Assembly: GCA_937873685.1 (NCBI GenBank)
Contig: CALMYO010000041.1
Coordinates: 1 to 44,954, forward strand
Direction: 5' to 3'
Source: an uncultured Paracoccaceae bacterium
GTDB lineage: Bacteria > Pseudomonadota > Alphaproteobacteria > Rhizobiales > Rhizobiaceae
DNA: 44,954 nt
Of this stretch, positions 7,942 through 25,910 are shown in pieces. The first letter of the stretch is position 1, and the number at the start of each line of letters is the position of its first letter. The position numbers and the translations under genes were made by a program. The notes beneath the pieces were generated by a model. It ran no database searches and was not told the DNA's origin. It saw only the letters and a list, made by a program, of their open reading frames with translations.

Positions 7942-9675
7942 TCAGAAGATGTCCGGTTCGGGTACAGGCTTGCCGAACTCGGTGCGCAGGAAGTCGAAAT
8001 CGCAGCCCTTGTCGGCCTGCTCGATGTGCCGCGCGAACATCCAGCCGTAGCCGCGTTCGTACCGTGGCGCGGGCTGCGTCCATTGCGCGCGGCGGCGCGC
8101 CAGTTCGTCGCCGGACAATCGCACGTCGAGCCGGCGGTTGGGCACGTCGAGTTCGATAATGTCGCCGCTTTCGATCAGCGCTAGCGGCCCGCCGATGAAG
8201 GCTTCGGGCGCGACATGCAGGATGCAGGCGCCATAGCTGGTGCCGGACATGCGCGCGTCGGAAAGGCGAACCATGTCGCGATGGCCCTGTTTCAAAAGCG
8301 CCTGGGGCATCGGAATCATGCCCCATTCGGGCATGCCAGGCCCACCCTGCGGGCCGGCGTTGCGAAGCACCAGCACATTGTCCGGCGTCATCGGATAATC
8401 GGGATCGTTGATGATCGCCTTCAGTTGCGGATAGCTGTCGGCGACAATCGCCGGTCCCGCATGCTTCTGGAATTTCGGGTCCATCGCCGCCGGCTTGATC
8501 ACCGCACCGTCAGGGGCGAGATTGCCGCGCAGCACGGCAAGCGATCCCTCGTGATAGACCGGGTTGGAAAGCGGGCGGATCACGTCGGAATTGTAGTTGC
8601 GCGCGCCCCCGATACATTCGCCAAGCGTTTGCCCGGTGACGGTGGTGACGGAGAGATCGAGCTTGTCGCCAAGTTCCTGCATCAGCGCCGGCATGCCGCC
8701 GGCATAGAAGAAATCCTCCATCAGGTACCCTTTTCCAGAGGGGCGGATGTTGGCGATTACCGGCGTGGTGCGGCCTATCGCGTCAAGATTGTCGAGCGTA
8801 AGCGCAATGCCGGCGCGCCGCGCCATGGCGATGAGGTGGATGATGGCGTTGGTGGAGCAGCCCGTCGCCATGGCGACGGTAACGGCGTTGCGCGTCGCTG
8901 CCTCGGTGACAATTCTGTCCGGCGTCAGATCCTCCCACACCATCTCGACGATGCGCCGCCCGCAGGCGACCGCCATGCGCTTGTGGCCGGAGTCGGGTGC
9001 GGGAATCGACGATGCGCCGGGCAGGGTGAGGCCGAACCCCTCGGCGATGCCCATCATGGTGGAGGCGGTGCCCATCGTCATGCAGGTGCCGTAGGATCGG
9101 GCGATGCCGCCCTGCACCCCTACCCACTGCGCCTTGTCGATGGCGCCGGCGCGCCGCTCGTCCCAATACTTCCACACATCCGTGCCGGAACCGAGTTTCT
9201 CGCCGGCGTAGTTGCCGCGCAGCATCGCGCCGGCGGGCAGGAAGATGAAGGGCAGGCCCATCGACAGCGCGCCCATGATCAGTGCCGGGGTGGACTTGTC
9301 GCAACCGCCCATCAAAACCGCGCCGTCGACCGGGTGAGAGCGCAGCGTCTCCTCCACCTCCATCGCGCCCATGTTGCGATACAGCATCGATGTGGGTTTC
9401 AGGAACTGTTCGGAAAAATCGTGAACGGGCAGTTCCGCCGGCATGCCGCCCGCTTGCAGAATGCCCTTCTTCACGAATTCCGCACGGTCGCGCAGATGGT
9501 GGTGGCAGGGCGAAAGGTCCGACCAGGTGTTGATGATGGCAATGACCGGCTTGCCGCTCCAGTCCTCTTCTGAAAGGCCCATCTGCATGGCGCGCGAGCG
9601 ATGGCCCATGGAACGCAAGTCGTCGGGCGCAAACCAGCGGGCGGAACGCAGATCCTGCGGGCTCTTTCTTCGCAT
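7942..9675 (-). CDS. IlvD/EDD family dehydratase, probably sugar-acid (L-arabonate/xylonate-type) dehydratase
   Basis: A 577-residue iron-sulfur dehydratase. The three conserved cysteines are in NTWSDLSPC (C57), MGGCDKSTPA and SYGTCMTMGTAST, and the C-terminal LSDARMSGTSYG motif is present. The opening LRSARWFAPDD and overall length match the sugar-acid branch (arabonate, xylonate, gluconate-like) better than the housekeeping dihydroxy-acid dehydratase of branched-chain synthesis; this is inference and the product name in databases may simply be IlvD. ATG 9675 has AGGACAGG upstream at good spacing; ATG 9696 in the same frame is also possible. It is divergent from the amidase at 9923, and no other sugar-acid pathway gene adjoins it. 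Confidence 0.85.
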   Translation of the reverse strand: MRRKSPQDLRSARWFAPDDLRSMGHRSRAMQMGLSEEDWSGKPVIAIINTWSDLSPCHHHLRDRAEFVKKGILQAGGMPAELPVHDFSEQFLKPTSMLYRNMGAMEVEETLRSHPVDGAVLMGGCDKSTPALIMGALSMGLPFIFLPAGAMLRGNYAGEKLGSGTDVWKYWDERRAGAIDKAQWVGVQGGIARSYGTCMTMGTASTMMGIAEGFGLTLPGASSIPAPDSGHKRMAVACGRRIVEMVWEDLTPDRIVTEAATRNAVTVAMATGCSTNAIIHLIAMARRAGIALTLDNLDAIGRTTPVIANIRPSGKGYLMEDFFYAGGMPALMQELGDKLDLSVTTVTGQTLGECIGGARNYNSDVIRPLSNPVYHEGSLAVLRGNLAPDGAVIKPAAMDPKFQKHAGPAIVADSYPQLKAIINDPDYPMTPDNVLVLRNAGPQGGPGMPEWGMIPMPQALLKQGHRDMVRLSDARMSGTSYGACILHVAPEAFIGGPLALIESGDIIELDVPNRRLDVRLSGDELARRRAQWTQPAPRYERGYGWMFARHIEQADKGCDFDFLRTEFGKPVPEPDIF

Positions 9676-9922
9676 GACGTCACCTGTCCTGACCATGGGT
9701 TCTCTTCATGGAACAGAATGCCTCTGCCTGCCGCCGTCAATAGTCGCCAGCGCAAATCGGGTCGCTGCGGACCGCTGGTGCGCTGTCTGCCGCCGTCGAT
9801 TGCACGACAATCGCGCGCCGGGCTATGGCTACGGAAGCCGGGCAGCCGCGAGGCGGTGCGTTGCGCGAAACCGGCCTTGGCCGGTTGGCCGGCTGTAACG
9901 GGAACAGGAGAAGGGGTCGGGC

Positions 9923-11611: not shown

Positions 11612-12700
11612 TCAGTTGCCGCGCAGGCGCTTTCCCTCTGCGTCGAAAGCGTGGATGTCGGCTGCATCGTAGGCGAGCGCGATTTCCTCGCCGCGGGCGA
11701 TCGCCGGCTGGCCGGGAAGCACGGCAAGTATGCGCTGGCCACCCTTTGTCTGGGCATGCACTACGGTCTCCGCGCCGAGTTGTTCGGCGAGCGTCACCGT
11801 GACCTCGATCGCCGCCTCATGGCCGCGCGCCAGTTTCAGGTGCTGGGGGCGGATGCCGAGCGTGACGGAAGCGCCGGGCAACACAGCGCCGCCTTCGGCG
11901 TCGATCGACACCCGCCCGCCATCCAGCCACGAGCAGGCAAGCCCGTCGGCGGCGACGCCGGTCACGGTGGCGGGGATCAGGTTCATCGACGGTGCGCCGA
12001 TGAAGCCGGCGACGAACAGGTTCGCCGGCCTGTTGTAGAGATTGAGCGGCGTGTCGACCTGCTCGATTCGTCCCGCACGCAGCACGACGATACGATTGGC
12101 GAGCGTCATCGCCTCCACCTGGTCGTGCGTCACGTAGATCATCGTCGTCTTCAGCCGCCCGTGCAGCGCGGCGAGTTCCGCCCGCATCGAGACACGCAGT
12201 TCCGCATCGAGGTTCGACAGCGGTTCGTCGAGCAGGAAGGCTGTCGGGTTGCGCACGATCGCCCGGCCGATCGCCACGCGCTGGCGCTGCCCGCCAGACA
12301 GCTGGCCGGGGCGGCGCTCAAGCAGTGCGCCAATTTCCAGCATGCGCGAGGCCTCGGCGATGCGCGCCTCGATTTCCGGGCGCGGAAGATGAGCGTTCTC
12401 CAGCCCGAAAGCCATGTTCTGGCGCACCGTCATGTGTGGATAGAGCGCATAGGACTGGAACACCATCGCAAGCCCGCGATCGGCGGCGGCGACGCGCGTG
12501 ACGTCGCGGCCATCGATCTCGATCCGGCCGCCGGTCGGCTGGTCCAGCCCGGCGATCAGCCGAAGCAGGGTGGACTTGCCGCAACCCGACGGGCCGACGA
12601 ATACCACCAGCTCGCCGGCGGTGATGTCGAGGTCGATGCCCTTTAGCACATGAACCGCGCCAAAGGATTTCTCGATGCCGGTCAGCGTGATGCGTCCCAC
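11612..12700 (-). CDS. ugpC: Sugar ABC transporter ATP-binding protein, UgpC/MalK family
   Basis: A 362-residue ATPase of the MalK/UgpC/MsmK group that powers a carbohydrate importer from the cytoplasmic side. Walker A GPSGCGKST, Q-loop VFQSYALYPHMTV, signature LSGGQRQRVAIGRA, Walker B FLLDEPLSNLD and the switch His (YVTHDQ) are all intact. The C-terminal third is the TOBE-type regulatory domain (FIGAPSMNLIPA, LGIRPQHLKL). The start is GTG 12700, ten bases after the permease stop, with a GGGGGAG site. It is the last gene of a five-gene leftward operon. The symbol follows family usage and does not imply glycerol phosphate as substrate. Confidence 0.92.
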   Translation of the reverse strand: MGRITLTGIEKSFGAVHVLKGIDLDITAGELVVFVGPSGCGKSTLLRLIAGLDQPTGGRIEIDGRDVTRVAAADRGLAMVFQSYALYPHMTVRQNMAFGLENAHLPRPEIEARIAEASRMLEIGALLERRPGQLSGGQRQRVAIGRAIVRNPTAFLLDEPLSNLDAELRVSMRAELAALHGRLKTTMIYVTHDQVEAMTLANRIVVLRAGRIEQVDTPLNLYNRPANLFVAGFIGAPSMNLIPATVTGVAADGLACSWLDGGRVSIDAEGGAVLPGASVTLGIRPQHLKLARGHEAAIEVTVTLAEQLGAETVVHAQTKGGQRILAVLPGQPAIARGEEIALAYDAADIHAFDAEGKRLRGN

Positions 12701-12710
12701 CTGCTCCCCC

Positions 12711-13763
12711 TCATTTCAGCCCGGTTCCGGCAATGCCGGCTGTGATGAATCGCTGCAGGAACACGAACACCAGCACCACCGGGATCATCGTCACCACGGT
12801 CATGGCCAGAATGAAATGCCACTGCACGTTCAGTTCGCCGGCATAGGTGTTGAGGCCGACCTGCAGCGTGTAGAGTTCCTTGCGCGACAGCACGATCAGC
12901 GGCCACAGGAAATCGTTCCAGCGCCACACCACCGAGAAGATGGCGAGCACGGCAAGCGCCGGCGCGGTGAGCGGCAGCACGATGCGCCAGTAGATCTGCC
13001 ACTCCGACGCCCGGTCCATCCGCGCCGCGTCCAGCAGTTCGTCGGGAATGGTCAGCATGTACTGGCGCAGCATGAACACGCCGGTTGGCGTCGCCACGGT
13101 CGGCAGGATGACGCCCCACAGCGAATTGAACAGCCCCACTGCGTTGATGACCGAATAGAGCGGGACGAGAATGACCGACAACGGCACCATCAATGTCGCC
13201 AGGATCAACAACATCACCATGTTGCGGCCGCGAAACTGGTATTTCGACAAGGCGAAAGCCGCCATGGAGTTGGTGATGAGCGTGATCAGCGTCGCCATCA
13301 CCGTCACGAAAACCGAGTTCTGCAAGTAGAGCACGAAATCGTTCTTCTGCAGCGGCTCGACGTAGTTTTCGGTCGCAAAGCCGATGTCGCGCGCCGGCTT
13401 GCGGTCGGCGATGTTGACCTTGATCACCTCGTCCGGCTTCGCGGGATCGATCATCTGGGCGACGATGCCGATGCGCCGCTTTTCGGCGAGGATGCGCGTC
13501 TCGCCGTTTTCGAGCGTCACCTCGAACAGCGGCAACGGCTTGTCGAAGCCTTCCACCGGCACAGTGCGCGCCACATAGGGCAGGATCGTCGGCGGGAATT
13601 CGGCAAGTTGCGCCGGCGACTTGAAGGAGGAGCCGACCAGCCATACCGCCGGGCCGAACATCACGATCACGCCCGAGATCAGCCAGAACCAGGTAAAGTA
13701 ATCCGTCCAGTGCCAGCGGTCGCCGCCGCGCCGTCGAAGCAGGAAATCGCTGACGCGGCTCAT
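12711..13763 (-). CDS. Sugar ABC transporter permease, MalG type
   Basis: A 350-residue inner-membrane permease. The coupling (EAA) loop is DELLDAARMDRASEWQIYWR followed by IVLPLTAPAL. Membrane segments are at about residues 25-45 and five more from about residue 155 on. Ordinary MalG-type permeases are about 275-300 residues; the extra length is a roughly 100-residue periplasmic insertion between the first and second membrane segments (about residues 52-152, starting FKSPAQLAEFPPT), perhaps contacting the binding protein or an unusually shaped substrate. The ATG overlaps the stop of the upstream permease by four bases, indicating translational coupling. Confidence 0.92.
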   Translation of the reverse strand: MSRVSDFLLRRRGGDRWHWTDYFTWFWLISGVIVMFGPAVWLVGSSFKSPAQLAEFPPTILPYVARTVPVEGFDKPLPLFEVTLENGETRILAEKRRIGIVAQMIDPAKPDEVIKVNIADRKPARDIGFATENYVEPLQKNDFVLYLQNSVFVTVMATLITLITNSMAAFALSKYQFRGRNMVMLLILATLMVPLSVILVPLYSVINAVGLFNSLWGVILPTVATPTGVFMLRQYMLTIPDELLDAARMDRASEWQIYWRIVLPLTAPALAVLAIFSVVWRWNDFLWPLIVLSRKELYTLQVGLNTYAGELNVQWHFILAMTVVTMIPVVLVFVFLQRFITAGIAGTGLK

Positions 13764-14773
13764 GAGCGCTTGCCCTTCTGCTCGCCGCGCCGCGCCACGC
13801 CAAGCTGAATCAGGGTCAGAACCACCAGCACCGCCCCCATCAGGATCGACGCGGCCGACGCCAGCCCCGGATTGCGCAGCAGCGAGGCAAAGCCCACCTC
13901 GTAGATGTATTGCGTCACGAACAGCGTCGCCGTGCCCGGCCCGCCACCAGTCAGCACATAGACTTCATCGAAGATCTGCACGGCGCGGATCAGCACGAGA
14001 ACGATCACCACCAGCAGGTTCGGCATCAGCAGCGGCAGGGTGATGCGCCAGAACACGCGTGACGGGCGCGTGCCGTCCATTTCGGCGGCCTCGTAGAGAT
14101 CGCGCGGGATCGCCTGCAACCCGGCGAGCAGGATCAGCGCGTAAAAGCCGACATGCGCCCAGATCGACACGCCGATCGCGGCCGTGAAGGCCCATGTCCG
14201 GTCTGTCAGCCACACCGTCGGCTCGATGCCGAACTGGTAAAGGAAGTAGTTGAGCAGGCCTTCGCGCTGCAGGATCCAGCGCCAGATCAACCCGACGACG
14301 ACCGGCGACAGCAGCACGGGAAAGAAGAAGACGGCGCGCCAGAAACTGCGCGCGCGAATGTCGCGGTTGAGGATGAGCGCAGTGACCATCGCCACCACGG
14401 TCATCGCCACCACCTGCAGTACGACGAAAAGCGCGGTGTTGTGCACCGCGACCCAGAACAGGTCGTCGGTGCAAGTGCGGGGATTGGCGTAGTTCTCGCA
14501 GGTCAGCAGCCGCGCATACTGCTCGCCACCGACAAAGCTGCGGTCCGGAAGGAAAAGCGCGGAGCCGCCCGTCATCGAGTAGGCGAAGTTGACGACCAGT
14601 GGCAGCAACACGAACACGCCGAAGATCGCCATGTTCGGAAACAGGAAGAACGCCGCCATGCCGCCGAAGCCGGCGCGGTTCTGCAACGCGCGCAGCGGCT
14701 TGTCGATCAGCGCGGCGAGCCACATGGCCGGCGCCGCAAGCACGGCGCCGACCGATTTCGTCAGGGCAGACAC
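13760..14773 (-). CDS. Sugar ABC transporter permease, MalF type
   Basis: A 337-residue permease with an N-terminal amphipathic stretch, a first membrane segment near residues 38-62 (FFLFPNMAIFGVFVLLPLVV) and five further segments. The EAA coupling loop is IPRDLYEAAEMDGTRPSRVF followed by WRITLPLLMPNL. A periplasmic loop contains two cysteines (LTCENYANPRTCTDD) that could form a disulfide. The start is GTG 14773, 15 bases after the binding-protein stop, with a GGCGGA site. It pairs with the MalG-type permease that overlaps its stop codon to form the channel. Confidence 0.92.
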   Translation of the reverse strand: MSALTKSVGAVLAAPAMWLAALIDKPLRALQNRAGFGGMAAFFLFPNMAIFGVFVLLPLVVNFAYSMTGGSALFLPDRSFVGGEQYARLLTCENYANPRTCTDDLFWVAVHNTALFVVLQVVAMTVVAMVTALILNRDIRARSFWRAVFFFPVLLSPVVVGLIWRWILQREGLLNYFLYQFGIEPTVWLTDRTWAFTAAIGVSIWAHVGFYALILLAGLQAIPRDLYEAAEMDGTRPSRVFWRITLPLLMPNLLVVIVLVLIRAVQIFDEVYVLTGGGPGTATLFVTQYIYEVGFASLLRNPGLASAASILMGAVLVVLTLIQLGVARRGEQKGKRS

Positions 14774-14788
14774 GGACCGGTCCGCCGG

Positions 14789-16051
14789 CTACTTGGCCTG
14801 CGCCACCTGGTCGGCGATGTCCTGGTCCATGCGAGCCCAGGCCTCCTCGAGCTTGAGTTCGCCGGCCATCACCTGGCTTGCGCGGGTCACCAGCGCGCCG
14901 TAATAGGCCGAGGCCCACTTCCATGCCGGAAGCGCGTCGGCGGCCGGCGCGATCTGCGAGGACGCCTGCACGAACTTCTCCAGTGCGCCCTTCACGTTCG
15001 GATCGTCGGTCTGGAAGTTCAGCCCGCCCTTGGCGACCACGCCCTTGTGGGCCGGCAGGAACAGCGTGCGTTCGGTGAACTCCTTCACGATGTCCTCGCG
15101 GGCGAGGTAGTCCATCACCTTGCCGACTTCGGTCGGGTTCTGCGTGTACTTGATGGCGACCATCGCCGCACCGCCCGCCAGACCGGAGCAGGCCGTGGTG
15201 CCACATGGGCTGCCCGTCGCGATCCAGTCGAACGAATCGCCGATCTTGGTCGACAAGTTGGCGATCTGCCAGGAGCCCGAATACAGGAAGGCGATCTGGG
15301 CGTTGATGAAATCGTCGGCGCCGGAGCGATAGGTCGTGCCGGCGGCCGAGACCCAGACTTCCTTGGAATGCTTGCCTTCCGCGGTCCAGTTCACCAGCTT
15401 GGTGACGAAGGCCTTGACGCCGTCGTCAACCGGGGCGGGCATGCCATCAGCGCCGATGTAGTTACCGCCATACGACGCGTTAGGTCCGGAGATGCGGTGG
15501 CCCGAGCGGTCGATCGCAAACGCGGCCGGAAGCTGCTGGCTCGCCTGCACCTTGGCGGCGGCGTCGACCCATTCGTCCCACGTCGCCTTCTCGCCGGGGA
15601 TCTCGACGCCGGCCTGCTCGAACAGCGTCTTGTTGGCGAAGCCGCCGGTCAGCGTCAGCTGCGTCATGAAGCCGGTGATCGCGTCGGACCCGTCCGGGCG
15701 CATCCAGTCGGCCTGCGCGCCGAAATTCGCCTTCCAGTATTCGGGATCGGCAACATGCGGCGTGATGTCGAGCCAGTGCTGCGCCAGCGCCTTCAGGTTG
15801 GTGACGCGGGCGATGTCCGGCCCCTTGCCGGCTTCGAGTTCGATCGGCAGTTGCTCCTGGATCACCTTGTAGGCGACGTTGTCCAGGATAACGTTGATGC
15901 CGGGGTTTTCCTTCATGAAGCGGTTCAGCAGGTCCTGAATGACCTCGCCCTCCACCCCGTCCGAATACCACATCACGCGAACGTCGCCCGCCTGCGCGGT
16001 CGACGCCAGCAGCGCGCCCGCAAGCGCGCCAAGAATTGCCTTGGCCTTCAT
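14789..16051 (-). CDS. Sugar ABC transporter extracellular (periplasmic) substrate-binding protein
   Basis: A 420-residue family 1 solute-binding protein. The signal peptide MKAKAILGALAGALLASTAQA is followed by GDVRVMWYSDGVEGEVIQDL, the usual start of mature sugar-binding proteins, and later INVILDNVAYKVIQEQLPIE and GSWQIANLSTK, the hinge and ligand region. It delivers substrate to the two permeases encoded downstream. The ligand is not readable from sequence; the large carbohydrate-active-looking gene upstream suggests an oligosaccharide. GGAGGAGAATGAC precedes the ATG. Confidence 0.93.
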   Translation of the reverse strand: MKAKAILGALAGALLASTAQAGDVRVMWYSDGVEGEVIQDLLNRFMKENPGINVILDNVAYKVIQEQLPIELEAGKGPDIARVTNLKALAQHWLDITPHVADPEYWKANFGAQADWMRPDGSDAITGFMTQLTLTGGFANKTLFEQAGVEIPGEKATWDEWVDAAAKVQASQQLPAAFAIDRSGHRISGPNASYGGNYIGADGMPAPVDDGVKAFVTKLVNWTAEGKHSKEVWVSAAGTTYRSGADDFINAQIAFLYSGSWQIANLSTKIGDSFDWIATGSPCGTTACSGLAGGAAMVAIKYTQNPTEVGKVMDYLAREDIVKEFTERTLFLPAHKGVVAKGGLNFQTDDPNVKGALEKFVQASSQIAPAADALPAWKWASAYYGALVTRASQVMAGELKLEEAWARMDQDIADQVAQAK

Positions 16052-16129
16052 GTCATTCTCCTCCGGTTGTCCTCCTCCATGGCGCGCTTTGCGCCATGGT
16101 TGGAGGCGACTTTTTCACGGAACGGTTTT

Positions 16130-18625
16130 TCAGGCAACCGTTCGTTCGCCCTTCACGGTCCACGTCGCCGGGTCGATGGTTTCGCCGGCGGCCGCCACCT
16201 TTCCGTCGGCACGAAAGACGACGCGGCCGTAGTGCGGATCATCGACGACGATGTCGCCGTTGGCCATGAAATGGGGCGCGACGCCGCCGTGCTTTTCGGC
16301 AAATTCGTCAAGCGTCCCGTCTCTTGCTTCCTGTCCGAGCCACACCAGCCACCAGCCCTTGCGACCGGCAAGGCGCAATTCGCAGCCGGTCGTCGGTCCG
16401 GTCGCCAGTTCCTGCAGTGTTCCGCTCGCCTTCACCACCATCAGCCCGTTGCCGCTCTGCGCCAGCGCCGTGTCGCCTGATACGGCCGAGCGGTCGAAGC
16501 ACGGCCGCGGGAACCAGGCATGAGTGAAGTCCGGCTGCTCGTCTGCCCCGTCGAACACGACGATCGCCAGGTTGCGGAACTGCTGCACGCGCGGGATCGA
16601 GGCGCTGCCACCCCAGTAGGACGGGCGGCCGTAGCCCGAATGGATCACTTCGCCGGGGTGGTTGATCCAGAGCTGCGCATCCGGGTTTTTCCCGATGCGG
16701 GCGTGGATCAGCGTTTCCTGGTAGCCCCATTCGTACCAGCGATAAGCCGCCGCTGTGCCGAGCGCGGTGTCGGCGCTCTTGTGGTGCTGCAGCGCGGCAA
16801 ACCCGTTCTCGCCTTGCTTGAAGCACCAGCCCTGCGCCGCGTCGCGCGTCCACACCGCGCGGTCCTGCAAATCGGCGGCAAGTTCAAGCCCGTGGTCGCG
16901 CAGGCAGAGCGCCAGTTGCGGCAGGGCATGGAAGCGCGCGCCGAAATGTCCCGCACCCCAGAGCAGCCGCGCCATTCCCGAAAGCTCCAGCGAACGCCCG
17001 GCGCGCAACGTATGTTCGTAGGAACGCCCCTGCGCCCCGGTGATCGCGCCGTGATGGGCGCTGTTGGCGACGATCTCGACGAGGCGCGCAATGCCCTTGC
17101 CCGCCCGCTCGGCGATATCGGCGTCGTGCGCAAGCGCGTAGAGCGCGGTGAGGCCCTTCAGGTCGATCGGGAAATACGGCGCCGAGTTGAACTCCGCCAT
17201 TTCCCATTGCTCGAAATGGTCGAGCCAGGCGCGCACCCGCTCGCGCCCGACGGAAGACTGCTCCGCCCCCTTGCGGCCGGAGCGCAGGAAGGTTGCGTGC
17301 GGCAACAGCGCGCCGGCCAGATAGGCGGCGGTGTGGAACAGCAGCGCGTGGTTCTCGGAAAAATACCACTGCACGTCGTTGCCCGGCTCGTCCATACAGT
17401 AACGGTAGGCGGGCATGGTGTCGTCGATGCGCCGCACCAGATCGGCGTCGAGCCGGTCGGCGAAGCGCGCGCGCGTCCAGATCAGCGGCACCAGCGCGAA
17501 ATCGGCGCAGTCGTGGCAGTCGCTAATGACCGGAAGCGTGGCGGCGATCATCGCGGCCGCCTTGCCGTCGCTGCGCCCGGCGGCCAGCCGCGCCAGCGCG
17601 CCGACGGTGTCGGGTTCGCCGCGATCGGCCACCCAAGCGAGCGCCTCGGCAATGCGTTCGTCCAGCGTCGCCGGCGCCGCGCCCTGCGCCTCAGCCTGGC
17701 AGATCTCGACGCCGAAGACGCGGCTGGCCGAAAACCCGCCGGCCGTCAGCGTCACCGTGAAATGGCGGAAATCGCCGGGCAAATCTTCCGTGTCGGCAAC
17801 GGGCAGCCGCGTTGCACCGGCCGCCAGCCGCGAACGCAGCAGCAGCGGCTGCTCGCGGCTCATGAAATCGCCCTCGACCGCGATGTCGGCGACAGCGTCG
17901 ACCGGCAGCGGCGCTGGCAGCACAAGCGCGACCTCGCCCGCGACATAGGACGGGCGCTCGAAATGCATCGCGTCGAGCGCCGCTTCAACAGCTGACGCGA
18001 CCGCGCCATCCGCCGCCATCGGCAGCGCGTTGTCGGCGCCCGGTCCCGCCATCCAGTCGAGGCGGATGAAGTAGCGCGCGTCGCGTTCGGCGAGGTCGTC
18101 GATGAACACCTCGAAGATGTGAACGCCGGCGGAGAGTTCCACCTCGAACTCCTGCGCGGTTTCGAAATTGCGCTGGTAGCGCGCCATGTGGCCGGTCTCG
18201 ACGCCGTCAACGTACAGCACCGCCCCGCCGCAGGTGGAAAGCTTCAGCCGCGCCGCGCCCGCCTCATGCGCGACGATCGCGGTGCGCGCCCATGTCGCGA
18301 TGACGGTCGGGCGGAACCAGAAGCCGGAGAGATCGAGCCGGGGCGAGCCGAACGGCAGCCACACCCGGTCATGGGCGAACCGGCCCGCAACGCGCGGCCG
18401 CTGCCCGCGCCGCTCGGCGGCAAACGCCGTGCGGCAGGGGTATTCGTGCGGGATGAAGTTCTTGTCCTTGGTGAGGAAGAAGAACGGGTCCATCGCGCCG
18501 GCCATCGGCTGGTCCGGAGTGTCGTAACGCGTCTCGTGTGTTTGTCCGACCAGCCAGCGGGTTAGCGGTGCGCCCGGCGATAGCCGCTCGGCGAGGATGG
18601 TCGGGGTTTCGGCGGGGGAAGTCAT
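16130..18625 (-). CDS. Large uncharacterised protein heading a sugar ABC operon, possible glycan-processing enzyme
   Basis: An 831-residue protein I cannot assign. It has no signal peptide and should be cytoplasmic. The N-terminal 220 residues look like a beta-sandwich (LKLSTCGGAVLYVDGVETGH, EFEVELSAGVHIFEVFID), resembling accessory domains of glycosidases. Residues about 380-690 are helical with conserved-looking motifs WYFSENHALLFHTAAYLAG (SENH at 423-426), SAPYFPIDLKGLTALYALA and a HPGEVIHSGYGRPSYWGG segment, reminiscent of an (alpha/alpha)6 barrel of glycoside hydrolases or polysaccharide lyases. The C-terminus is beta-rich. Start 18625 is the first Met of the conserved-looking part; its ribosome site is weak. 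Position 78 bp upstream of the binding protein suggests it processes the imported sugar. Confidence 0.7.
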   Translation of the reverse strand: MTSPAETPTILAERLSPGAPLTRWLVGQTHETRYDTPDQPMAGAMDPFFFLTKDKNFIPHEYPCRTAFAAERRGQRPRVAGRFAHDRVWLPFGSPRLDLSGFWFRPTVIATWARTAIVAHEAGAARLKLSTCGGAVLYVDGVETGHMARYQRNFETAQEFEVELSAGVHIFEVFIDDLAERDARYFIRLDWMAGPGADNALPMAADGAVASAVEAALDAMHFERPSYVAGEVALVLPAPLPVDAVADIAVEGDFMSREQPLLLRSRLAAGATRLPVADTEDLPGDFRHFTVTLTAGGFSASRVFGVEICQAEAQGAAPATLDERIAEALAWVADRGEPDTVGALARLAAGRSDGKAAAMIAATLPVISDCHDCADFALVPLIWTRARFADRLDADLVRRIDDTMPAYRYCMDEPGNDVQWYFSENHALLFHTAAYLAGALLPHATFLRSGRKGAEQSSVGRERVRAWLDHFEQWEMAEFNSAPYFPIDLKGLTALYALAHDADIAERAGKGIARLVEIVANSAHHGAITGAQGRSYEHTLRAGRSLELSGMARLLWGAGHFGARFHALPQLALCLRDHGLELAADLQDRAVWTRDAAQGWCFKQGENGFAALQHHKSADTALGTAAAYRWYEWGYQETLIHARIGKNPDAQLWINHPGEVIHSGYGRPSYWGGSASIPRVQQFRNLAIVVFDGADEQPDFTHAWFPRPCFDRSAVSGDTALAQSGNGLMVVKASGTLQELATGPTTGCELRLAGRKGWWLVWLGQEARDGTLDEFAEKHGGVAPHFMANGDIVVDDPHYGRVVFRADGKVAAAGETIDPATWTVKGERTVA

Positions 18626-18836
18626 GGCTTGCGCTTTCGTGCCGGATGATTGCTGCGCTTGATGGCAAGGAAACGGACAAATGGGAAGATCGTCATTGCA
18701 AAAGGCTGCCGTGGAGCATGTTGGTGGACCGATGAATGCGCTATCGCCTTGCATTTTACCGATCGATTTAATGCCGGTTTCACGCGAATGGGGTTACGTG
18801 ACGGCAGAAGAATAACCGGAGCGGGAAAACCGCAAG

Positions 18837-20078
18837 ATGAAGCATTCGAACAACAATGCCACCACGATCGGCAGGTTTGCGACTGACAACGCAGCCAACC
18901 TGGCGATTACGTTTGCGGCGATCATCCCGCTGTTTGCGGGCGCCGTCGGCATAGCGGTGGATTACTCCCGCGCATTGAATGCCAAAAGCGCCTTGCAGGA
19001 GGCGTTGGATGCCGCGACGTTTGCGGCGGCAAGCGAGAAGACGCAGGCCGACGCAAAGAAGAAGCTGGATGATTTCCTCGCCTATCAGCAGGCCAACGAT
19101 GAAACGCTGGCCGGGTTGAAGGCCAAGATTGTTTCATTCGATTCGACTGGATTGACAGTCAGTGCCGATGCCGACATGAAAACCACCTTCGCGGGCATTT
19201 TCGGAGTGTCGCAGTTGCCGGTGGCGGTGCAGTCTTCCGTGGCGTTTGGCGCTGGCCACCAGGAACTGCATTTCGTGCTCGATCTCTCGGGATCGCTTGG
19301 CATGGCCGCCACGCCTGCCGATCGCGTTGCGCTTGAAGCGGTGACGCAGCCTTACGTGTTTCCGGCCTATGGTTCGATCCTGCCACAAGGCTGTGCCTTT
19401 GCCTGTCATCAACGTGAAGGATGGGAGCCGGTTGGCAAGACCGTCTACCAGATCGCCCATGAAAACAGCATAAAGCTGCGCGAAGACGAATTGATGCATC
19501 AGTTCGGCGGCCTCGTCGACATACTGCTCGACCCAACCGACCAAATTGTCATCGACGGGAAGCGAAAGGTTGGCGTGATCGGCTTCAGCGGTTACGCGAA
19601 GCAATTGATCGCCCCCTCCGCTTCGGCCGCCGATGTCAAGGCGGCGATGAACGATTTTCCGTTGCACGATCGCGACAGCACCCAGTACGCCGCTGCCTTC
19701 GCGAAGATCAATGAGGTTATCGGCGCACAGGGCAATGGCGGCGCCGGAAGCCCCGACAAGGTGGTGATCCTGATCACCGACGGTATCGAGTCGCGTTCGG
19801 CCTTTTTCGCCCAGAACGCTATCGACACGTCGCTGTGCCAGACAGTGAAGGACAAGGGCTTCACGCTTGCCGTGGTTGAGCTGAAGTACCCGAAGCTGAC
19901 GTCGAACTCACTCTACAACGATACGGTGCTGCCGGTTGAAACCACCATCAGTCCGGGCCTTGCCGCCTGCGCGTCAACGGGGTGGCATTTCACTGCCACC
20001 AACAATTCCGACATACCGGTCAAATTCAATGAAATCCGCGCGAAATTCGGCGTCAGCACGGTTCGTCTGACGCAGTGA
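18837..20078 (+). CDS. TadG-like pilus-assembly/secreted protein with von Willebrand A domain
   Basis: A 413-residue protein. The N-terminus has the TadE/TadG-type segment: a short basic stretch, then NLAITFAAIIPLFAGAVGIAVDYSRA, one membrane helix that anchors it facing the periplasm. A von Willebrand factor A domain follows from about residue 143, with the metal-site DLSGS (D149, S151, S153) and a LITDGIES strand. An insertion with two nearby cysteines (GCAFACHQ) lies after the metal site. Such proteins belong to Flp/Tad pilus systems, but no other tad gene is in the window, so this is an orphan. The ribosome site (GGGAAAACCGCAAG) is weak. Confidence 0.82.
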   Translation: MKHSNNNATTIGRFATDNAANLAITFAAIIPLFAGAVGIAVDYSRALNAKSALQEALDAATFAAASEKTQADAKKKLDDFLAYQQANDETLAGLKAKIVSFDSTGLTVSADADMKTTFAGIFGVSQLPVAVQSSVAFGAGHQELHFVLDLSGSLGMAATPADRVALEAVTQPYVFPAYGSILPQGCAFACHQREGWEPVGKTVYQIAHENSIKLREDELMHQFGGLVDILLDPTDQIVIDGKRKVGVIGFSGYAKQLIAPSASAADVKAAMNDFPLHDRDSTQYAAAFAKINEVIGAQGNGGAGSPDKVVILITDGIESRSAFFAQNAIDTSLCQTVKDKGFTLAVVELKYPKLTSNSLYNDTVLPVETTISPGLAACASTGWHFTATNNSDIPVKFNEIRAKFGVSTVRLTQ

Positions 20079-24917: not shown

Positions 24918-25910
24918 TCACCCCCACAACCCTGCCTCAGGCGGCGACACCAGGGCGGTCGTGTAAGTCAGTGCCGGGTAACGATCGCGTTCCAGCAGCA
25001 GCGGCCCGTCGAGATCGACATAGTCGGCGTCCTGTGCAAGCAGCACCGCAGGCGCCATGGCGAGCGACGTGCCGACCATGCATCCGACCATGATGCCGAA
25101 ACCCATAGCGCGCGCGGCATCGCGCATCGCCAGCGCCTCCGTCAAGCCGCCGGTCTTGTCGAGCTTGATGTTCACGGCGTCATAAAGGCCGCGCAGCGGT
25201 TCGAGTTCGGCCGAGGTATGGGCGCTTTCGTCAGCGCAGATCGGCACCGGATGGGGAATGTCGCGCAGGATTGCGTCCTTTCCGGCCGGCAGAGGTTGTT
25301 CGATCAGCGCAATGTGCATCTCGGCGGCGGCGCGCAGCAGATCGACGATGGTGTTCTCGTCCCAGGCTTCGTTCGCATCGACAATGATGCGTGCCCGCGG
25401 TGCCGAAGACGCGACCGCATGCATGCAGGCGACCGGTTTTTCGCCGTCGACCTTGATCTTGAGCAGCGGCCGGTCAGCGGCGGCCCGCGCGGCTTCGGCC
25501 ATGTTGGCCGGGGTGTCGAGCGAGATGGTCAACGCCGTCGGTACCGGTCGCGGTGGCAGCCGGCAGGCGAGGCTGTGCGCCGGAACGCGGCTGGTCTTGG
25601 CCTCCAGATCCCAAAATGCGCAATCGAGCGCATTGCGCGCCGCGCCGGGCTTCATAGCTGCGCGCAAGGCCTCGCGCGGATTGTCGCCAAGCGACAGGGC
25701 GTCGAGCCCGGCGATCTGGTCGCGCACGCTTTCCACGGTTTCGCCGTAGCGGCGATAGGGCACGCATTCGCCAATGCCGGTGAAACCGCCGCCGGAAACA
25801 CGGCAGGTCACAACCTCGGCCTCGGTCTTTGCGCCGCGCGAGATGCGGAACTGGCCGCGGATCGGGAACCGCTCCACGGCCGTGGTGATCGAGAGGCGGG
25901 AGTGCGTCAT
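24918..25910 (-). CDS. Enolase-superfamily dipeptide epimerase / N-acyl amino acid racemase-type enzyme
   Basis: A 330-residue member of the muconate-lactonizing subgroup of the enolase superfamily. Visible active-site residues are the acid/base Lys pair in LLKIKVDG, the Mg ligands in VDANEAW, IEQPLP and CADESAHT, and the second acid/base Lys in NIKLDKTGG. The DES and KLDKTGG motifs match L-Ala-D/L-Glu epimerases (YcjG type), which recycle murein peptides. The rhizobial protein annotated DgcA (N-acetyl-D-glutamate racemase) is a close relative, but its usual DUF1611 partner is not adjacent, so I give no symbol. It is divergent from the MCE operon. Confidence 0.85.
   Translation of the reverse strand: MTHSRLSITTAVERFPIRGQFRISRGAKTEAEVVTCRVSGGGFTGIGECVPYRRYGETVESVRDQIAGLDALSLGDNPREALRAAMKPGAARNALDCAFWDLEAKTSRVPAHSLACRLPPRPVPTALTISLDTPANMAEAARAAADRPLLKIKVDGEKPVACMHAVASSAPRARIIVDANEAWDENTIVDLLRAAAEMHIALIEQPLPAGKDAILRDIPHPVPICADESAHTSAELEPLRGLYDAVNIKLDKTGGLTEALAMRDAARAMGFGIMVGCMVGTSLAMAPAVLLAQDADYVDLDGPLLLERDRYPALTYTTALVSPPEAGLWG

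Follow-up and report, generated by a model that had tools for sequence, protein, structure and literature searches.

What is the function of a large protein that heads a sugar importer operon and has no useful match in the sequence libraries? The question is raised by a 44,954-nucleotide stretch of DNA from an uncultured Paracoccaceae bacterium (contig CALMYO010000041.1; the whole stretch is called the window here), in which a five-gene operon on the minus strand (11612-18625) encodes an 831-residue protein (16130-18625), an extracellular solute-binding protein, a MalF-like and a MalG-like permease and an ATPase, as established from open reading frames and a family-library search. A first-pass annotation of this DNA had proposed that the large protein may be a cytoplasmic enzyme that cleaves glycans and belongs to an undescribed family, supplied by the adjacent importer. 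The predicted fold and the gene neighbourhoods of relatives support that proposal and also narrow it, in favour of a predicted lyase-type fold rather than a hydrolase, acting ahead of the glycoside hydrolase (GH) family 105, KduI and KduD enzymes. We put at roughly three in four the probability that the protein is a cytoplasmic oligouronide lyase of the polysaccharide lyase (PL) type, whose family is not represented in the libraries that were searched, namely Pfam, NCBIfam and PDB sequences, with CAZy lying outside the comparison. Most likely it represents an intracellular lyase of a new type, which degrades acidic (uronate-containing) sugar chains of plants or algae after their import, a reading that is based on its predicted shape and on the gene neighbours in related bacteria. 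The operon, the sequence conservation, the predicted fold class and the linkage to GH105/KduI and LacI genes in relatives are directly supported.

Relatives and their gene neighbourhoods

Searches of Pfam, NCBIfam and PDB sequences gave no useful match, whether started from the single protein, from four orthologues or from a 59-row profile. In the Rhizobiales and Rhodobacterales records examined the gene is annotated as encoding a "hypothetical protein", and literature searches, which did not extend to subscription papers, found no published description of its family. Scanning genome contigs brought up 195 relatives, and the neighbourhood counts given here cover the best-scoring 80 of these, hence they describe close relatives, which share 58-67% identity along almost the whole protein and belong mostly to Rhizobiales and Rhodobacterales. 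Since these 80 align near full length, with importer genes in the same order, and since W420, E424, N425 and H426 are invariant in orthologues as well as in paralogues at about 30% identity, the gene is real rather than a chance reading frame. In an even sample of the phylum 11 of 399 genomes had a match (in two of the 11 only a weak, partial one), as did 18 of 121 within the same family, some with fragments only. A second branch, whose members are 31-33% identical paralogues, is common on Rhizobium plasmids. In two sampled genomes the gene seems to be disrupted, being fragmented or interrupted by a stop (L165/L166 in G531, and G646:C34).

Near the best 80 relatives, a solute-binding protein gene was found in every case and MalF, MalG and MalK genes in 79, 77 and 77 cases, respectively, the shortfalls being confined to loci cut by contig ends. 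Upstream, a GH105-type hydrolase gene is present in 80/80, kduI in 78/80 and a divergently transcribed LacI regulator gene in 79/80, and a clear kduD lies near the gene in eight. Annotated plasmid operons are complete, in the order LacI / GH88(105)-kduI-[gene]-solute-binding protein-MalF-MalG-ugpC, with kduD then following in two of three. The partner hydrolase bears the Pfam label GH88, and its best PDB relatives are the GH105 proteins 3pmm, 3qwt and 4xuv. NCBIfam calls the GH105-like protein (L001:6137-7162, L098:14490-15581) "beta-galactosidase BglB", a name that may mislead, because context and PDB relatives point to an unsaturated-uronyl hydrolase.

A survey of homologues had been suggested in order to see whether the ABC (ATP-binding cassette) importer genes always accompany the gene. 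This is so for the solute-binding protein gene among the best 80, but the gene can do without an ABC importer: a Pseudosulfitobacter plasmid and two of the sampled genomes have a TRAP (tripartite ATP-independent periplasmic) transporter instead. These deeper relatives retain GH105 with kduI and/or kduD nearby, and in one of them a LamB-type porin gene adjoins the gene. In another sampled genome kduI, kduD, GH105 and the gene follow one another directly, without neighbouring ABC genes. Thus, as the importer can be swapped while GH105, kduI and kduD stay, it is the unsaturated-uronate enzymes, and not the importer, that are the constant partners. The operon of the paralogue (L098:11950-20088, L101:11821-19956, L157:4265-12758) likewise combines the 31-33% identical protein with GH105 and an ABC importer of its own, and a GH28 gene (PglB) is added in both Rhizobium copies. 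In 49 of the 80 relatives the word TTTTCAGNTTGCGCAA lies upstream of GH105, between it and the divergent LacI gene (e.g. L001:5995-6010), and is likely to be the operator of the LacI repressor.

Predicted fold

The AlphaFold2 model, built with 59 sequences (predicted local distance difference test, pLDDT, 87.2; predicted template modelling score 0.89), consists of a mainly beta region (about residues 1-308), a helical toroid (about 311-590) and a C-terminal beta-sandwich (about 598-831), which bears out the beta / helical / beta order that had been read from the letters. A toroid followed by a C-terminal beta-sandwich, as in this model, is the architecture of the PL8/12/15/17/21/35 clan. When the whole protein was compared by Foldseek, the first-ranked match was the PL15 exo-lyase Atu3025, with a probability of 1.00, a value also reached by the PL17 enzyme Alg17c. 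For the fragment 312-831, all 19 matches at E < 1e-3 were to PL17, PL12, PL15, PL35 or human dermatan sulfate epimerase 1 (DS-epi1), every one of which acts on uronate residues, and PL8 came next in the list. The toroid and C-terminal part also have a distant homologue on an archaeal (Haladaptatus) plasmid (L099:11782-13767), where its gene lies next to sugar oxidoreductase and isomerase genes.

One may also consider an intracellular glycoside hydrolase with an alpha/alpha barrel (e.g. GH63, GH127, GH146 or a rhamnosidase-like enzyme), which would trim the remaining sugars once GH105 had cut the unsaturated uronate from imported products of secreted lyases. Ready-made unsaturated oligosaccharides are indeed often imported, GH63, GH127 and GH146 appear among the fold matches to the fragment, and GH2 enzymes match the N-terminal beta domain. 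However, the barrel hydrolases had Foldseek probabilities below 0.5, as against 1.00 for the lyases, and the invariant N-H / Y / H pattern described below is lyase-like. The GH2 matches were set aside, the template modelling (TM) score being about 0.1 and the matches, which were due to the N-terminal beta domain, being gone once that part was omitted. We regard a hydrolase as unlikely, and of the earlier suggestion that the architecture resembles both hydrolases and lyases with an (alpha/alpha)6 barrel, the lyase half is the better supported.

Candidate active site

The WYFSENH motif that the first-pass annotation had picked out is present and conserved, although it occupies residues 420-426 (17348-17368, minus strand) and not 423-426, which are SENH only. 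Conservation was counted over 59 orthologues, plus the paralogues at about 30% identity. Besides the four motif residues already named, E478, S481 and Y484 of EFNSAPY (residues 478-484; 17174-17194, minus strand) are invariant in orthologues and paralogues alike, and in the beta-sandwich H656 is conserved in 58, W671 in 59 and Y670 in 53 of the 59 orthologues. In lyases of this fold (PL12/15/17/21/35) an Asn/His is followed 53-57 residues on by a Tyr, and in PL15/17/21/35 a catalytic His of the beta-sandwich lies about 149-166 residues past that Tyr (PMC12088678). Here the distance from N425/H426 to Y484 is 58-59 residues, compared with 53-57 in the known lyases. By analogy with lyase spacing, N425/H426 are candidate carboxylate-neutralising or base residues and Y484 is a candidate catalytic tyrosine, whereas a second catalytic His/Tyr, from the beta-sandwich, may lie within residues 656-671 (16613-16660, minus strand).

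The same residues invite a second alternative, a uronyl C5-epimerase like DS-epi1, which would convert the imported oligosaccharide before its cleavage by another enzyme. The human enzyme (6hzn) is among the fragment matches with the joint highest TM score to the query, 0.47, and the order of its catalytic residues, His205, Tyr261 and Tyr473 (PMC8006597), is paralleled by H426, Y484 and Y670. DS-epi1 differs, however, in being biosynthetic and polymer-acting, in its gene context and in having no sequence similarity to the 831-residue protein. The partners GH105, KduI and KduD are catabolic, and without a lyase the operon would offer no source of the unsaturated substrate of GH105, unless this is imported. 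Moreover, we know of no precedent for a cytoplasmic epimerase of free oligosaccharides, and altogether an epimerase seems decidedly improbable. Least probable of all is that the protein has the lyase fold but no catalytic activity and aids the importer as a sensor or binding protein: the gene is usually near transport genes and no activity is known for its product, yet in relatives it lies between the kduI and solute-binding protein genes, its product is predicted to be cytoplasmic, it stays with GH105 and kduI/kduD where a TRAP transporter takes over, and invariance around the presumed pocket is strong.

Some observations do weigh against an active lyase. No conserved His occurs at the usual spacing of 149-166 residues from Y484, where Q636 is found at +152; H656, at +172, lies outside that range, and nothing evidently corresponds to the superfamily His of the HxHxD-like loop. 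Y670 is replaced by Phe in six of the 59 orthologues, and residues 477-483, 533-539 and 664-671, which are parts of the presumed active-site loops, are modelled with low confidence (pLDDT < 50). The TM scores of the fragment matches are modest (0.34-0.47, at 9-12% identity), and hhalign comparison with PL15/heparinase-type proteins from other genomes, for which the profiles were small, gave probabilities below 1%. The resemblance is therefore at the level of fold only; a fold does not prove activity, and this one includes a C5-epimerase. Finally, kduI was not found in the source genome, which is 92% complete in 298 contigs.

Comparison with known systems

The best whole-protein fold match, the oligo-alginate lyase Atu3025 of Agrobacterium (PL15; 3a0o, 3afl), is an exo-lyase acting on oligosaccharides that has the same succession of beta region, (alpha/alpha) toroid and beta region and a His-Tyr spacing in the toroid similar to that of the candidate residues here. 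Nevertheless, it is only about 11% identical to the 831-residue protein, with no sequence-profile match. PL15-type proteins contain Hepar_II_III_C and often DUF4962, neither of which is seen here, and the 831-residue protein also departs from PL15 in having no evident HxHxD histidine and in its gene neighbours, GH105, KduI and KduD. Membership proper of PL15, PL12 or PL17 was rejected, as there was no Pfam match at E-values up to 10, including to Hepar_II_III_C (PF07940), DUF4962 and Alginate_lyase, and hhalign probability was below 1%. Similarly, PL17 Alg17c, PL12 heparinase III and the PL35 GAGases share the toroid plus beta-sandwich fold (probability 1.00) and show a spacing from Asn/His to Tyr comparable to that of the candidate residues, but they are 9-12% identical, have no Pfam family in common with our protein and lack its extra N-terminal beta domains.

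In enterobacteria, PL22 oligogalacturonide lyases occur with TogMNAB and KduI/KduD, a scheme of importer, cytoplasmic oligouronide lyase and KduI/KduD like the one proposed here. These lyases differ in having a beta-propeller fold, and GH105 is not their constant partner; membership of PL22 was rejected, since it requires a beta-propeller and the model is a toroid with a beta-sandwich. YetA/LplABCD-type operons and PL26 rhamnogalacturonan exo-lyases are comparable in that a large multi-domain lyase of similar domain order is encoded beside the genes of a sugar ABC importer. Here the differences are that no Pfam-A match was obtained at E-values up to 10, in a library whose inclusion of PL26 models is unconfirmed, and that no PL26 entry was recognised among the fold matches listed. 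By these tests the protein belongs to neither PL15 nor PL22, and its most likely role is to work as those systems do.

Proposed pathway and substrate

From the evidence above we infer that the protein is a lyase, which of its residues are catalytic and what kind and size of substrate it takes. In the best reading, the lyase acts upstream in the GH105 / KduI / KduD route for unsaturated uronates. The ABC importer would take up a uronate-containing oligosaccharide, which would bind in a cleft formed by the helical toroid and the C-terminal beta-sandwich. There N425/H426 would neutralise the uronate carboxylate, while Y484, with H656 and/or Y670, would serve in removal of the C5 proton and breakage of the 4-O bond by beta-elimination, leaving a product with a delta-4,5-unsaturated uronyl end. 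GH105 would then release the unsaturated uronate, giving 5-keto-4-deoxyuronate, which KduI, KduD, 2-keto-3-deoxygluconate kinase and an aldolase would carry to central metabolism. Because the constant partner is GH105, rather than direct monomer release, and because the paralogue's operon adds GH28, the substrate is likely to consist of repeats of uronate and neutral sugar, e.g. rhamnogalacturonan-I or glucuronate-rhamnose oligosaccharides.

A bolder version of this reading has, in our view, an even chance of being right as a whole: that the protein is the founding member of a new lyase family in the toroid clan, marked by additional beta structure at the N-terminus and by catalytic residues that do not include the usual HxHxD histidine, that it acts in the cytoplasm on an oligosaccharide of aldobiuronate repeats in a widespread, undescribed alphaproteobacterial uptake route, and that the paralogues form a subfamily which works alongside GH28 in a pectin-type route.

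The operon in its source genome

The tight leftward operon with a full importer that had been recognised earlier is confirmed by the reading frames and family matches, the gaps between its genes being, in gene order, 78, 15, -4 and 10 bp. All on the minus strand, the 831-codon frame is followed by genes for the solute-binding protein (14789-16051; 420 residues with a signal-like N-terminal sequence; SBP_bac_1, PF01547, 4e-21), the MalF-like permease (13760-14773; GTG start; BPD_transp_1), the MalG-like permease (12711-13763; BPD_transp_1), with a 4-bp overlap at the MalF stop, and a UgpC/MalK-type ATPase (11612-12700; GTG start; NF008653, above cut-off). With SBP_bac_1, two BPD_transp_1 permeases and a MalK/UgpC-type ATPase that has TOBE_2, the importer is of the CUT1 carbohydrate type. 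No PDB relative of the solute-binding protein was found at E < 1e-10, and it therefore gives no clue to the ligand. The large protein starts at the ATG at 18625, with a second in-frame ATG at 18754; in relatives, L001 among them, the start of the gene is close to that of the shorter version and overlaps the kduI stop. Its N-terminus (MTSPAETPTILAERL...) has no hydrophobic leader, in agreement with the absence of a signal peptide noted before. Promoter and terminator scans of the operon gave signals no better than chance.

Within the window the operon contains no regulator or sugar enzyme, as had been reported, but the absence is peculiar to this genome, since in relatives GH105 adjoins the gene. 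Its divergent upstream neighbour encodes a TadE/G-like VWA protein (18837-20078), and downstream lie genes for an OmpA-family protein and an N-carbamoylputrescine amidase. The nearest sugar enzyme in the window, outside the operon, is a predicted L-arabinonate dehydratase (7942-9696, above NCBIfam cut-off). A predicted N-acetyl-D-Glu racemase DgcA (24921-25910, also above NCBIfam cut-off) is unrelated to the operon.

The sole GH88/105-family gene of the source genome, 70% identical to the usual partner, is on another contig (C59, 10265-11329, minus strand; L103), surrounded by unrelated genes of aldehyde-oxidase type. An orthologue of the LacI regulator was not found in the genome either (best match 32%), TTTTCAGNTTGCGCAA is absent from the window, and near-matches to it in other parts of the genome do not exceed what a reversed-pattern control suggests. 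As the genome is 92% complete and in 298 contigs, the absence of kduI and the repressor is weak evidence, but the operon split itself is visible inside the window's contig (C41). With GH105 on a different contig and no kduI or LacI orthologue found, the regulon looks eroded or rearranged here.

Significance

A conserved "hypothetical protein" is thus encoded among named partners in a compact catabolic operon. Relative to the libraries searched, CAZy not being covered, its family would be a new one within a known kind of enzyme. If it is a lyase, this would add a family to the uronate-cleaving enzymes, give a conserved unknown a function and identify the cargo of the neighbouring importer, and would help to define the use of acidic sugars by root- and alga-associated bacteria.

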